Shown: piece after piece, positions 21,073-24,840 of the stretch
How positions within the stretch are numbered: position 1 is the stretch's first letter
Layout: each line of letters begins with the position of its first letter
The notes under the pieces: model-generated
Seen by the model: the letters and a program-made list of their open reading frames with translations, nothing else
What the model was told of the DNA's origin: nothing
Databases searched by the model: none
Program-made: the position numbers and the translations under genes
Assembly: GCF_900142365.1 (NCBI RefSeq)
Contig: NZ_FRAP01000014.1
Span: 62,001-126,000, forward strand
Reading direction: 5' to 3'
Length of the DNA: 64,000 nt
DNA from: Pseudonocardia thermophila
GTDB taxonomy: Bacteria > Actinomycetota > Actinomycetes > Mycobacteriales > Pseudonocardiaceae

Positions 21073-22062
21073 TCAGGGCTCCTTCTGTCCGGCGTTCTTC
21101 GCCAACGTCAACGTGCCGTCACCGCCGGATTCTTCCCACCGGCCCGCGGCAACGTCCTGCCACATCCTCGTCACCGCCGCGGCGACGGCGTGCGGGGCCT
21201 CGATGTGCCCCACGTGCCCGACCCCCGGCAGCATCACCAACCGGCCGCGCGTGAGCGCGGCGGTGCGCCGGGCCAGGCTCGGCGACACCAGTCGGTCCTG
21301 CTCGCCCCACACCACCAGCGTTGGCACCCTGATCCGCGCCGCCAGCGGCCACGGCGACGGGCCGCGCAGCCAGCTGATCAGCAGCTGCCGGCCGGTCTCC
21401 TGGTGCGCTGTGTACGCCCACGGCAGCCGCGCCCGCTCCTCCAGCTCAGCGGCCAGCTCGCGCAGCCGGTGCTCCGGCACGACCGACGGATCGCCGAAGC
21501 AGATCCCGACCAGCTGCGCCGCCCGCTCGAGGGCGGTCAGGCCGCCCAGCTCGGCGCGGGCCCGCTTGCCGATCGGCCCCGGCAGCGCGGCCAGCAGCAT
21601 CCGCGGATCAGCGAGCCGCCGAGGGCTGGGCCGCCGGTCCGGCACGGCCGGCGACACCAGCGTCAGCGTCGCGACCAGCTCGGGACGCCGGGCCGCCACC
21701 GACAGCGCGACGAGCCCGCCGAGCGAGTTGCCCAGCAGGTGCACCCGCCGGCCGAGCCCGGCCAGGAAGCACAGCACGGCGTCGGCGTGCCCGGACGGTG
21801 TCCAGTCCGGCACGGCGAGCGGGCGGGAGCGGCCGAACCCGGGCAGGTCGATCGCCATGCCCGCGGCGTGCGGGGCGAGCAGGCCGGCCAGGTCGGTCCA
21901 GTTGGTGGCCGATCCGGCCAGCCCGTGCACGTAGACCGCCGGGGTCCCGTCCGGGCCCGGGGTCTCGCGCACGTGCAGGGTGACGCCACCCGCGGTGATC
22001 TCCCGGCCCGGCCACGGGCCCGCGTACGGGGCCGGGTCCAGGCGCGTGGCGACGTCGGTCAC
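21073..22062 (-). CDS. Alpha/beta-hydrolase
   Basis: A 329-aa alpha/beta-hydrolase-fold enzyme. The oxyanion region is YVHGLAGSATNW, the nucleophile elbow is LLGNSLGGLV (catalytic Ser), the acid strand is VVWGEQDRLV and the catalytic His is in GVGHVGHIE. The substrate cannot be inferred. GTG at 22062 (protein starting TDVATRLDPAPY after Met) is preferred over a GTG at 22119, which adds a low-complexity tail. It is upstream of, and 5 bp from, moeZ on the same strand, so they are probably co-transcribed. Confidence 0.85.
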   Translation of the reverse strand: MTDVATRLDPAPYAGPWPGREITAGGVTLHVRETPGPDGTPAVYVHGLAGSATNWTDLAGLLAPHAAGMAIDLPGFGRSRPLAVPDWTPSGHADAVLCFLAGLGRRVHLLGNSLGGLVALSVAARRPELVATLTLVSPAVPDRRPSPRRLADPRMLLAALPGPIGKRARAELGGLTALERAAQLVGICFGDPSVVPEHRLRELAAELEERARLPWAYTAHQETGRQLLISWLRGPSPWPLAARIRVPTLVVWGEQDRLVSPSLARRTAALTRGRLVMLPGVGHVGHIEAPHAVAAAVTRMWQDVAAGRWEESGGDGTLTLAKNAGQKEP

Positions 22063-22225
22063 GACGACGAGGATCGCCCAACCGCCCGGTGCACCGCCAG
22101 TACCCGGGACCGGACTCACGTCACCCGGTCCGTCCCACCCGGTTCACCCGACCGTGCACGAGTGGCGGGATCCCCCCTCCGGCGCGGTTTCCGGCGCCCT
22201 GGCCGGACGTTGGTAGCGGTGGGGG

Positions 22226-22309: not shown

Positions 22310-23140
22310 ATGACGACGGCGAGCCGGCTGGCCGCGTACGGTGCGGTGCTCACGCTGACCTTCGGCGGCGCGTGGGCGCTCGGCGCCCAGGTCGGCCCGG
22401 CGCTGCCGGCCGCCTGGGCCGCCGCCGAGCACGTCCGTCCCGCCGACGATCCGGGATCCCCGGCCGACGCCTCCGGGTACCGGATGGTGCTCGACCCGTC
22501 CGCCCCGGCCGGCGAGTTCGCGTTCACCGTCACCGGGCCCGACGGCCGCCCGGTGTCCGGTTCCTCCGGTCCACCCGCGAGCGTGGTCCTCGTCCGCACC
22601 GACGGAGGCGCCCACCAGCTGCTCGCGCCGGAGCTCGGCGCCGACCACGTGTGGCGGTCTCCGCTGGCCCCGCTCTCCCCCGGCCTCTACCGCGCGCTGG
22701 CCGATCTCACCCCCGGGGGCGGGCCGCGGCTGCAGCTGTCGACCGAGCTGTTCGTGCCGGGCACGCCGCGGCCCGCGCCCACCGGGCTGTCGCGGGTCTG
22801 GCAGGGCGACGGCTACCAGGTCCGCCTCGACGGCGATCTCGTGCCCGGCAGCGCCTCACAGGTCTTCGCCACCGTCACCAAGGACGGCGCTGCGGTCACC
22901 GATCTGCAGCCGCACCTCGGCGGGTTCGGCGGGCTCGCCGTGCTGCGCCTACCGGATCTGGCCCCGCTCGCCGTGCGCGCGGACGGGCCCGCACCGACGG
23001 CTGTGGCCACGACGGGTCCGTCGGTCGCCTTCGTCGTCGACGTCCCGGAGGCGGGCACCTACCGGGTGTACTTCGACTTCCTGCACGACGGAGCCACGCA
23101 CGGCGCGGCGTTCACCGTGGCCACGCGGGAGGCGCCGTGA
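22310..23140 (+). CDS. Secreted or membrane-anchored protein coupled to a degenerate P-type ATPase
   Basis: A 276-aa protein with an N-terminal hydrophobic segment (residues about 8-26, LAAYGAVLTLTFGGAWALG) that could be a signal peptide or anchor. An extracytoplasmic beta-rich region follows. Its C-terminal part (HLGGFGGLAVLRLPDL, then AGTYRVYFDFLHDG and FTVAT) resembles secreted proteins in actinobacterial copper/heavy-metal loci. Those I recall carry a His-rich segment after the LRxGDL strand; here it reads APLAVRADG, without His. The ATG at 22310 has GGGAGGAG upstream. Its stop overlaps the GTG of the next gene by 4 bp. Confidence 0.8.
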   Translation: MTTASRLAAYGAVLTLTFGGAWALGAQVGPALPAAWAAAEHVRPADDPGSPADASGYRMVLDPSAPAGEFAFTVTGPDGRPVSGSSGPPASVVLVRTDGGAHQLLAPELGADHVWRSPLAPLSPGLYRALADLTPGGGPRLQLSTELFVPGTPRPAPTGLSRVWQGDGYQVRLDGDLVPGSASQVFATVTKDGAAVTDLQPHLGGFGGLAVLRLPDLAPLAVRADGPAPTAVATTGPSVAFVVDVPEAGTYRVYFDFLHDGATHGAAFTVATREAP

Positions 23141-24840
23141 CCGCCACGATCGATCCGGCCGTCGTGCAGATCGAGCTCGGGCTGGTCGATCCACCCCCGC
23201 CGGAGCCACCGCGGGACGTGCCGCCCCCGGACCCGGCCGAGCTGCGCAGGCTGCTGGTCGCCACCGGTCTGGCGCTGCCGGTGGTCGCGCTGGCGACCGT
23301 GCCCGCGTGGCAGTTCCCGCAGTGGTCGTGGATCGCGCTCAACCTCGTCGCACCCGTCGCGGTGTGGGGCGCGTGGCCGTTCCACGCCGACGCCGTGCGG
23401 AGCCTGCGCCGGGGCCGGCCGTCCCCGGACCTGCTGGTCTCCCTCGCCGCGCTGACCGCGCTCGGCTGGTCGCTGCACGCGCTGCTGACCGGGGCGGGCA
23501 CGCCGTACCTAGAGGTGGCGGCGGGGGTCCCGGCGCTGGCGCTCGCGGCCCGCTGCGCCGCCGACCGGGCCGCCCGCGTGGCCGGCGCGGGCACCGTGGT
23601 GCCGGAGATCGGGCGGATCGCCGGGGTGCTGGTGCCGGTTGTGGTCACGCTCGCCGTCGGGGCGCTCGGCTTCTGGCTGGGCGCAGGCGCGGGGACCGCG
23701 GTCGCGGTCCCGGCCGCGCTGGCGGTGCTGGTGGCCGGCTGCCCCGCCGTGCTGGTGCTGGCCGCCCCGGTCGCGCTGCTCACCGGTGCGGAGCGCGCGG
23801 CCCGGTCGGGCGCCCGGTTCACCTCGCCGGACGCGCTGGCGGCGGCTCGCCGCGTCGACGCGGTCGTGCTCCCGACGGCCGGGACGCTCACCAGCGGCCG
23901 CATGATCGTGCACCGGGTGCGCCCGCTGCCCGGCGGCGTTGCCGGCGAGGCGCTGCGGCTGGCCGGGGCGGTGCACCAGGACTGCACGGACCCGATCGGG
24001 TCGGCGCTGGTCGCCGCCGCGATCGCGGAGCACGGCGCGCTGCCCTGCGTCTCCGAGTTCGACCTGCTGCCGGGGCTGGGCGTGCGCGGCCTGGTGTCCG
24101 AGCTGGACGGCGACGTCGTGAAGGCCCATGCGGTGCTGGCCGGGCGCCCGGAGCTGCTCACCGCGCACGGCGTCGAGCTGCCCGACGCGCTGGGCGATGC
24201 GCTGGCCGCGACCGACGCGGACGGTGCCGTCGGCATCGTGGTCGCCTGGGACGGGCGGGCGCGCGCCGTGATCGCGCTGGTCGCCGATCTGTGCCCGGGC
24301 AGCGCGGCCGCGGTGGCCCGGCTGCGGGCCATGGGCGTGCGGCCGGTGCTGGTCACCCGCGACGGCCCGGCGGAGGCGGCCAGGGTGGCCGCGGACGTCG
24401 GCATCGCCCGCGAGGACGTGGTCGCGGAGGTGCCGGCCGGGCTGCGCGCCGAGCGCGTGCGCGCGCTGCAGGCCGCGGGCCGGGTCGTCGCGGCGGTCGG
24501 CGACGGCCGCGGCGACGCCGCTGCGCTCGCCACCGCCGATCTCGGCATCGCGACCGGATCGGGCGGGGCCCCGCTCGTCCTCTCCTCCGGCGAGTTGCCC
24601 CTCGTGGTGGCAGCGCTGCGGCTCGCTCGCCGCGTGGTCGGGACCGTCCGGGTGAACCTCGGCTGGGCGATGGCGGTGCACGCCGCGGCGCTGCCCGCGG
24701 CCGCGGTCGGGCTGCTCGACCCGGTGCTCGCCGGGCTGGCGGTCGCGCTGGCCGCGGGTGTCGCCGTGGTGACCGGGCTGGTGTGCCTCGGCGCGCATCG
24801 TGACGATCACTCTTCCCCGATCAGGGCTACTGACCGGTAG
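23137..24840 (+). CDS. Catalytically degenerate heavy-metal P1B-type ATPase homologue
   Basis: A 567-aa membrane protein recognisable as a CopA/CtpA-type ATPase by the CPx helix (GCPAVLVLAAPVALLTG, Cys202-Pro203), the LTSG segment after the phosphorylation site and VGDGRGDAAALATADLGIA. Key catalytic parts are changed. The invariant DKTGT is PTAGT (Pro246 replaces Asp), the HP motif reads CTDP, TGD reads TRD and GDGxND reads GDGRGD. The actuator domain with TGE between the helix pairs is missing: only about ten residues join them. Late transmembrane metal-site residues are also absent. The frame is intact with normal codon use, so it is probably a maintained pseudo-enzyme. Confidence 0.85.
   Translation: MTATIDPAVVQIELGLVDPPPPEPPRDVPPPDPAELRRLLVATGLALPVVALATVPAWQFPQWSWIALNLVAPVAVWGAWPFHADAVRSLRRGRPSPDLLVSLAALTALGWSLHALLTGAGTPYLEVAAGVPALALAARCAADRAARVAGAGTVVPEIGRIAGVLVPVVVTLAVGALGFWLGAGAGTAVAVPAALAVLVAGCPAVLVLAAPVALLTGAERAARSGARFTSPDALAAARRVDAVVLPTAGTLTSGRMIVHRVRPLPGGVAGEALRLAGAVHQDCTDPIGSALVAAAIAEHGALPCVSEFDLLPGLGVRGLVSELDGDVVKAHAVLAGRPELLTAHGVELPDALGDALAATDADGAVGIVVAWDGRARAVIALVADLCPGSAAAVARLRAMGVRPVLVTRDGPAEAARVAADVGIAREDVVAEVPAGLRAERVRALQAAGRVVAAVGDGRGDAAALATADLGIATGSGGAPLVLSSGELPLVVAALRLARRVVGTVRVNLGWAMAVHAAALPAAAVGLLDPVLAGLAVALAAGVAVVTGLVCLGAHRDDHSSPIRATDR

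Follow-up and report, generated by a model that had tools for sequence, protein, structure and literature searches.

A copper-type pump encoded at one chromosomal site of Pseudonocardia, a soil bacterium, seems to have acquired a new job after it was broken, because the pump was dismantled repeatedly among relatives and one piece was preserved each time. We consider it fairly probable that the P. thermophila copy, which lies in the 64,000-nucleotide stretch of DNA analysed here (the window), is a maintained pseudo-pump whose N-domain is held at the membrane as a scaffold or regulator and which is produced along with P2, an exported protein with a faint likeness to YtkA; this biochemical function is one that we infer. 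The features of the two genes are as follows, in window positions (P2 by translation and profile search, the pseudo-ATPase gene by translation, the replaced motifs and the N-domain by alignment, PTAGT also by translation).

22310 to 23140, forward strand: P2, an exported protein of 276 residues with a hydrophobic N-terminal anchor
23137 to 24840, forward strand: pseudo-P1B-ATPase of 567 residues, GTG start at 23137, TAG stop at 24840
23575 to 23616, forward strand: actuator-domain deletion junction, about residues 147-160 (alignments; partial match to Pfam PF00122)
23740 to 23748, forward strand: CPA (residues 202-204) where the intact orthologues have CPC, the TM6 metal site; second Cys lost
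23872 to 23886, forward strand: PTAGT (residues 246-250) in place of DKTGT
23908 to 24285, forward strand: N-domain, retained (approximately residues 258-383); contains GLGVRG, AHAV and AWDGRAR
23983 to 23994, forward strand: CTDP (residues 283-286) in place of SEHP, i.e. DP for HP
24355 to 24363, forward strand: TRD (residues 407-409) in place of TGD
24499 to 24516, forward strand: GDGRGD (residues 455-460) in place of GDGxND

A phosphorylated Asp is taken as the defining residue of P-type ATPases. The sequence-only reading had described an open 567-codon gene without this residue, the other catalytic motifs and the actuator, overlapping the exported-protein gene by 4 bp, and translation and alignment agreed with it on each count (GTG 23137, TGA ending 23140). 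The normal codon use that it had also claimed fits GC by codon position (0.85/0.575/0.951), which looks coding. The protein covers only positions 115-180 of 181 of the Pfam E1-E2_ATPase profile (PF00122) and 10-191 of 191 of the HAD hydrolase profile. In the alignment with syntenic intact orthologues, the actuator domain was reduced by an in-frame deletion to 0.15 of its columns, no copy of TGE was aligned, the N-terminal HMA domain was gone, and VH and VALAA stood at the late-transmembrane YN and MAFSS of intact pumps (YN and MxxSS are what we take to be the late transmembrane metal-site residues of an active P1B-type ATPase). The match to TIGR01525 (E 4.8e-58, 197 bits, below the cut-off of 346) and the syntenic intact orthologues indicate that the pseudo-ATPase shares ancestry with P1B-ATPases; judged by its sequence it lacks each feature checked for an active one (Asp, TGE, CPC, HP/TGD/GDGxND, late metal site) and is a homologue of an enzyme with its catalytic residues lost. 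This is a warning for annotation: profile scoring points to a heavy-metal ATPase, whereas the sequence predicts that the gene product is unable to work as one. AHAV and AWDG were rejected as marks of new function because HAV and/or WDG occur in most other intact Pseudonocardia P1B pumps inspected.

At the same chromosomal site of 62 Pseudonocardia genomes, we found an intact pump in 23, a degenerate one in 26 and no pair in 8, while 5 were not assessable or not examined; the gene order MoeZ-ABH1-pair-TetR was common to intact and degenerate genomes. The sequence-only reading had suggested looking for orthologues with the Asp-to-Pro change and a missing actuator; in none of the 26 degenerate genes was DKTGT or GDGxND present (0/26), and sequencing error was ruled out because so many genomes have the degenerate state in common. 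The degenerate lineages each lack the same parts: the metal-binding (HMA) domain, the actuator domain, the catalytic Asp and the late metal-site residues. The lineage-1 form has 365 residues, and cultured species with a degenerate copy include P. nigra DSM 104088 and P. hydrocarbonoxydans NBRC 14498. Outside Pseudonocardia, the ATPase adjoining P2 was intact in 52 of 55 loci, which came from the 80 top-ranking matches out of 419, and 3 were not assessable. Hairpins TM5-6 and TM7-8 were kept though eroded in the degenerate proteins (0.70-0.99 and 0.72-1.00 of columns, respectively, in the 17 rows tabulated). Their retention speaks for a residual membrane part that conducts substrate passively or draws on a different energy source, for example a channel that carries metal or small molecules for P2; however, CPC survives in few degenerate rows, none keeps the TM7-8 metal-site residues, and the part outside the N-domain is less constrained in lineages 1 and 4, and we regard such a channel as very unlikely.

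No frame disruption was detected in 24 of the 26 degenerate genes, the breaks being in G030 and G061. Eleven of 12 degenerate pairs had an omega of 0.086-0.221, with LRT values of 84-200 for the test against 1; omega was 0.021-0.080 in 8 intact pairs and 0.94-5.8 in six wrong-frame controls; saturated pairs (G000-G016, G000-G049, G001-G057, G015-G058 and G030-G033) were left unused. The degenerate genes are under purifying selection in the three lineages of six that offer close pairs (1, 4 and 6), the P. thermophila lineage being a single long branch. The proposed maintenance with an open frame was supported among the relatives, and for the P. thermophila gene itself the open frame is suggestive, not decisive, because 9 of 200 neutral-drift simulations at the relevant divergence were also stop-free. 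The sequence-only reading had held that intact orthologues in sister strains, or disrupted frames among close relatives, would indicate a decaying pseudogene. Taken literally, the former exist, as 23 genomes with DKTGT at the same site, but they do not imply decay here because 26 others are degenerate and purifying selection acts where it is measurable.

Under slow decay, the pair would merely duplicate an intact copper operon located elsewhere, be dispensable and under relaxed selection, and lose catalysis first and P2 next before disappearing altogether. The P. thermophila genome does have an intact HMA-protein/P2/ATPase operon elsewhere, omega of the degenerate genes is above that of intact pumps, and the two frame breaks, the failure to find P2 in 5 of the 26 degenerate genomes and the absence of the pair from 8 of 62 genomes fit a dispensable gene, the genomes grading from intact to degenerate to P2 not found to pair absent. 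Against this stand the omega of 0.09-0.22 with its LRT values, the 24 genes without detected disruption, an N-domain whose constraint is close to that of intact pumps beside a three to fivefold relaxation of the remainder (lineages 1 and 4), and four genomes (G002, G007, G037 and G046) that are degenerate yet in which no second P2 copy was seen. A decaying pseudogene as the sole account is made less probable by the open frames, by omega and by the shift of constraint to the N-domain, and we hold slow decay to be unlikely.

The N-domain shift was observed by comparing omega of the N-domain and of the rest in pooled pairs, which within a lineage have branches in common: 0.086/0.052 in intact pumps (LRT 30.8), 0.056/0.166 in lineage 1 (LRT 37.5), 0.116/0.237 in lineage 4 (LRT 29.2) and 0.153/0.200 in lineage 6 (LRT 7.1, a weak shift). 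In the pooled data the N-domain is the faster-evolving part of intact pumps and the slower-evolving part of degenerate ones; purifying selection has come to focus on the N-domain in three lineages, one of which shows this weakly, and two pairs, G004-G011 and G014-G037, had no shift. A point against an N-domain-centred reading is that in the P. thermophila protein the N-domain is not the most intact-like region, its identity to intact pumps being 0.56 vs 0.59 for TM1-4 and TM5-6. Another possible source of N-domain conservation, gene conversion by the intact C24 copy, was not favoured because that copy is without the VSELDGDVV-like stretch that the P. thermophila pseudo-ATPase and its syntenic relatives have.

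The degenerate state appears to have arisen at least four times, probably six. The tree of neighbour genes needs 6 changes between canonical and non-canonical pumps, at least 4 of them forced by starred branches, and the P2 tree needs 5 (bootstrap 4-6), of which starred branches alone force only 2. If the degenerate ATPase had instead arisen once and then spread or been sorted among lineages, the losses would not be parallel; the ATPase's own tree, in which a branch (support 60/96) has all 25 degenerate rows used on the same side, and the loss of HMA and actuator domains in all lineages argue for such a history. However, a single clade of degenerate-paired P2 is rejected (p-AU 1.3e-32), the neighbour genes disagree, and the ATPase data themselves do not reject degenerate rows held with their intact sisters (p-AU 0.14-0.35). 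Moreover, a related 3.4-3.6 kb insertion lies upstream of P2 in intact G049 and in degenerate lineage 1 (two lineage-1 genomes compared), N-domain insertion lengths broadly track species groups, and long-branch joining is to be expected. A single origin was tested and not favoured, and we rate it as highly improbable. The tree tool flagged long branches in the ATPase tree.

We predict that the ancestral Pseudonocardia state was an intact pair of exported protein and copper-type ATPase between alpha/beta-hydrolase and TetR genes, and that in the four or more, probably six, lineages the HMA domain, actuator, catalytic Asp and transmembrane metal sites were lost in place, with the N-domain retained between the TM5-6 and TM7-8 hairpins. 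Such a pseudo-pump should neither form a phosphoenzyme nor bind metal by the usual path, and would still be made as protein. It may serve as a membrane-anchored scaffold or regulator produced in step with P2, and may act by contacts that its N-domain fold makes with other proteins instead of by ATP hydrolysis or transport. The likeliest ligand of the N-domain would be the metal-binding domain of CopZ or of the intact paralogous pump, by analogy with intact copper pumps, on whose A/N region metal-binding domains or tails dock according to the available part of one paper (PMC11970713). A more specific version, about which we are doubtful, is that a copper pump was turned repeatedly and in parallel into a membrane-tethered N-domain, deprived of its own metal-binding and actuator domains and translationally coupled to P2, that acts in trans: it would catch a metal-binding domain or tail, either that of CopZ or that of the intact paralogous pump, and so set the activity of that pump; if true, it would define a class of regulatory P-type pseudo-pumps absent from the literature searched.

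Compared with the P1B heavy-metal ATPases (CopA, CtpA/B/V type; TIGR01525, TIGR01511), the pseudo-ATPase is homologous from TM1 to TM8 with recognisable N- and P-domains, but is without the phosphorylated Asp, actuator, CPC, HP, TGD, GDGxND, HMA and late metal-site residues; its best solved relatives are copper ATPases, e.g. 3j08. The intact syntenic pumps (e.g. P. acidicola L144, P. xinjiangensis L148 and P. dioxanivorans CB1190 L159) have neighbours and exported partner in common with it, 49-53% identity to it (22 intact rows aligned), 757-814 residues where the gene is complete, and DKTGT, TGE and CPC kept. Human TMEM94 likewise has a P-type-like architecture without the TGES motif and no ATPase activity in the accessible text of a structural paper (PMC12134183), but it is eukaryotic, has ten helices and is not P1B, and an excerpt of another paper calls it a Mg2+ ATPase (PMC13322241). 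CcoI, in the portion available of PMC8475189, is a P1B-ATPase that works with an extracytoplasmic partner, the periplasmic chaperone SenC, but unlike the pseudo-ATPase it actively transports copper. The literature searched, which covered few subscription journals, yielded no paper about a P1B pseudo-ATPase of bacteria or about the P2/pseudo-ATPase locus, and the accessible part of one review (PMC10654040) treats no bacterial P1B pseudo-ATPase. One genus has both intact and dead versions of one pump at a single site, and in each of several losses, apparently independent, identical parts went missing while one and the same part was left. Nature has thereby run an experiment on what remains for a P-type ATPase to do once it no longer pumps, and non-catalytic roles of the N-domain become directly testable.

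As judged by eye, P2 consists of two beta-rich domains in tandem, of which the second bears a weak resemblance to YtkA. The P. thermophila protein scores 13.9 bits against Pfam YtkA (PF13115), below the cut-off of 25.9, and among 20 relatives 7 gave a match with E no higher than 1, the lowest being 0.0037; in a profile search against solved structures, designed proteins were the sole matches. The similarity recalls the YtkA/CtaK copper-handling domain of Bacillus subtilis, CtaK being a membrane-anchored lipoprotein implicated in CuA assembly in the partial text of PMC13344008, but P. thermophila P2 is without the His motifs of its relatives (QHLHP, GH..HVHP) and has HQLLAP, FGG and PLAVRA, the latter two at the sites of FGH and YLHVHP in several relatives. 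The sequence-only reading had ascribed a His-rich segment to relatives of the exported protein, correctly for several (e.g. G049, G016, G034). It had further suggested that both proteins moved away from metal pumping, the pair being a candidate sensor, chaperone or assembly factor: the dead pump homologue and the maintained appearance of its degenerate relatives stood, but a joint departure did not, as the His motifs of P2 are lost beside a retained pump in G025, G050, G055 and G057 and retained beside a dead pump in G015, G009 and G056, so that the two losses are uncoupled among relatives. G054 P2 also retains His motifs, its pump gene being truncated by the contig end. Beside dead pumps, omega of P2 was 0.028-0.089 in all 9 pairs having P2.

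One further feature, identified by comparing TetR loci, ends at the last base of the pseudo-ATPase gene.

24827 to 24840, no strand assigned: CTACTGACCGGTAG, an inverted-repeat element upstream of the TetR gene, spanning the pseudo-ATPase stop codon

Such an element, a putative operator, was present in 52 of 61 TetR loci, and in 21 it enclosed the stop codon of the ATPase gene. The frame might be kept only for translational coupling or for this TetR control element at its end, with the protein idle, as the 4-bp overlap with P2 and the 21 enclosed stop codons would allow; however, constraint acts on amino acids through the whole gene and several pairless genomes keep the element, and we find this scarcely credible. 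The element's presence in the genomes without the pair was noted by eye.

The exported protein (P2) and the P1B-ATPase homologue of the window are encoded by genes that overlap by 4 bp and lie between an alpha/beta-hydrolase gene and a TetR regulator gene:

21073-22119, strand opposite to the pair: alpha/beta-hydrolase gene, 5' of the pair (Pfam)
22310-23140, + strand: P2, exported protein with N-terminal hydrophobic stretch
23137-24840, + strand: P1B-ATPase homologue, 567 codons
24840-25550: TetR regulator gene, 3' of the pair (Pfam)

A gene that we take to be MoeZ-like also lies upstream on the opposite strand, and another neighbour is presumably AurF, both names being assigned by sequence. 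The sequence-only reading had described an ATPase stripped of its catalytic motifs (PTAGT for DKTGT), and re-reading the translation confirmed each of its motif readings to the residue. Of the E1-E2 domain, Pfam matched just the C-terminal third, and in the alignment the window protein lacked the metal-binding (HMA) and actuator (TGE) domains. A TACC..GGTA-like inverted repeat 5' of the TetR gene (window 24827-24840) was present in 52 of 61 TetR loci, including some that have no gene pair, and contained the ATPase stop codon in 21; that some pump genes have conserved final residues may be no more than a side effect of this repeat.

The TetR orthologue was present in 62/62 Pseudonocardia genomes, and the stretch before it was assessed genome by genome, with G060 left out of the count and start codons of the relatives' genes assigned mechanically. 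An ATPase with DKTGT was found in 23/62 genomes (in G029 divided between two contigs), P2 with a degenerate ATPase in 21/62, a degenerate ATPase with no P2 detected by tblastn in five (G022, G030, G033, G048, G061), and neither gene in eight (G003, G010, G012, G019, G021, G028, G039, G045); contig ends interrupted the site in G006, G024 and G054, and different genes flanked TetR in G020. Degenerate ATPases thus made up 26 of the 49 assessable. P2 relatives with species names and the same gene neighbourhood were all from Pseudonocardia (P. lacus, P. humida, P. hydrocarbonoxydans, P. nigra, P. acidicola, P. xinjiangensis, P. dioxanivorans and others). Outside the genus, where the ATPase beside P2 was examined in the best 80 of 419 P2 matches, DKTGT, TGE and CPC were found at 52 of 55 P2 loci, the remaining three not being assessable (two cut, one with the ATPase 5' of P2); the intact pump is therefore most likely the ancestral state. 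Separately, at L097:3336-4271 (G022) and L104:5707-6732 (G048) a P2 homologue was seen with no ATPase match along the fetched stretch, and the frame after the former resembles, by eye, a different kind of transporter.

DKTGT and GDGxND occurred in none of the 26 degenerate genes, and in the two with frame breaks (G030, G061) DKTGT was in no forward frame; CPC was kept in three genes and HP in four (G030 unreadable at both sites). Compared region by region in 17 degenerate rows and five intact pumps, the actuator domain retained 0-24% of columns in 16 of the 17 degenerate rows; G061 is out of frame there, and its flanking pieces lie only 72-87 bases apart vs about 150 codons in an intact pump, so the domain is missing in G061 too. 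The nucleotide-binding (N-) domain kept 84-100% of columns in 17/17 degenerate rows, where its identity to the consensus of intact pumps was 44-61% vs 70-75% in the five intact pumps; the other parts, HMA aside, fell from 76-98% in intact to 7-59% in degenerate rows. By this identity measure, TM1-4 and TM5-6 (59%) of the window protein match its N-domain (56%), so only against its intact-pump baseline is the N-domain the least eroded part. The degenerate genes of G030 (L111) and G061 (L139) carry canonical-like pieces in a second frame; since completeness is lower in these genomes (83% and 78%), decay and sequence error are alike possible.

A tree built from four neighbour proteins of 59 genomes (short search; without G020, G024 and G060), in which genomes lacking the gene, like the interrupted G006 and G054, counted as not canonical, required six canonical/not-canonical changes, four of them forced by starred branches. 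The degenerate lineages were:

Lineage 1: G005, G007, G009, G047, G056, G059; sister, intact G049
Lineage 2: G000, the window's genome
Lineage 3: G015, with cut G054
Lineage 4: G018, G061, G004, G011, G048, G030, G022, G033; sisters, intact G008, G016, G034
Lineage 5: G001; sisters, intact G057, G035, G036
Lineage 6: the G042 group, nine genomes

Separation was best for lineages 1, 4, 5 and 6 and poorer for 2 and 3. The tree of P2, made from 43 rows that excluded the truncated sequences of G004 and G011, and with G006 and G054 scored degenerate, needed five changes (bootstrap 4-6), two forced by starred branches by themselves, and rejected a single clade of degenerate-paired P2 (p-AU 1.3e-32). 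Support was weak (60/96) for the grouping of the 25 degenerate rows in the ATPase tree, which excluded G061, used a G030 sequence partly out of frame and drew a long-branch warning; four tests on the same data did not reject placing degenerate rows with their intact sisters (p-AU 0.14-0.35). Lineage 1 is tied to its intact sister independently of any tree, because the hydrolase gene and P2 are about 3.4-3.6 kb apart in G049 (extra DNA at L151:1612-5000, on the intact-pump contig) and in two lineage-1 genomes (L143, L146), and this extra DNA is related (stretches of 75-82% identity); the spacing is just 0.2-0.6 kb in L142, L144 (P. acidicola), L148 (P. xinjiangensis) and L158. N-domain insertion length, unreadable in at least seven rows, broadly tracked species groups, with G018 and G061 fitting poorly. 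These comparisons suggest that the pump was lost in parallel at least four times, probably six.

Pairwise codon likelihoods for 12 degenerate pairs of lineages 1, 4 and 6 gave omega (dN/dS) of 0.086-0.221 in 11, each far from 1 (LRT 84-200), the twelfth (G030-G033) being saturated, with the frame break in G030. Omega was 0.021-0.080 in eight intact pairs, 0.028-0.089 for P2 next to dead pumps (9/9 pairs having P2) and 0.94-5.8 in six wrong-frame controls. The N-domain evolved faster than the rest in intact pumps (0.086 vs 0.052, LRT 30.8, six pairs pooled) and slower in degenerate lineages 1 (0.056 vs 0.166, LRT 37.5), 4 (0.116 vs 0.237, LRT 29.2) and 6 (0.153 vs 0.200, LRT 7.1); because the pooled pairs have branches in common, these LRTs overstate independence. 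Among single pairs, the shift was weak in G047-G059, G002-G027 and G046-G027 and not seen in G004-G011 and G014-G037.

The window gene forms a long branch of its own, with no close relative. Its omega relative to intact G058 was 0.133, over a span that includes time preceding the loss. Neutral simulation from G058 (200 runs, 65% relative identity) left 9/200 runs stop-free, with a mean of 3.2 stops, and lowered third-position GC to 0.89 vs 0.951 observed; in pairwise alignment the window protein shows nine gap runs, with the frame open all along. Simulation, third-position GC and open frame favour maintenance of the gene without proving it.

These comparisons show that the pseudo-pump has no catalytic machinery and that, in its relatives, constraint acts at the protein level and has moved to the N-domain. 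The protein may act as a membrane scaffold or regulator. According to the introduction of one paper, N-terminal metal-binding sites may control transport by way of the N- and A-domains (PMC8475189); we propose that a free N-domain, its own HMA domain gone, could bind such metal-binding parts in trans.

P2 itself appears by eye as two tandem beta-rich domains; its YtkA match was below the Pfam cut-off, and comparison with solved structures matched designed proteins only. QHLHP and GH..HVHP motifs occur in several P2 relatives and are lost in the window P2, and among the relatives this loss was not coupled to loss of the pump. On contig C24 of the window's genome lies a paralogous operon (L044:3967-7422) in which an HMA-domain (CopZ-like) gene is followed by a second P2 and by an intact ATPase whose domains are HMA, E1-E2 and hydrolase. 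Redundancy with this operon can explain why the site tolerates lost pumping, but leaves the continuing purifying selection unaccounted for. The same genome has a second, more degenerate P1B-ATPase homologue of 525 residues (L038:6044-7618; G000:C25:74043-75617, + strand), which adjoins DsbA-like, MauE and cation-efflux genes, has matches in 2/61 other genomes at E 1e-30 (37-38% identity, longer frames), and finds its best match in the window's pseudo-pump.
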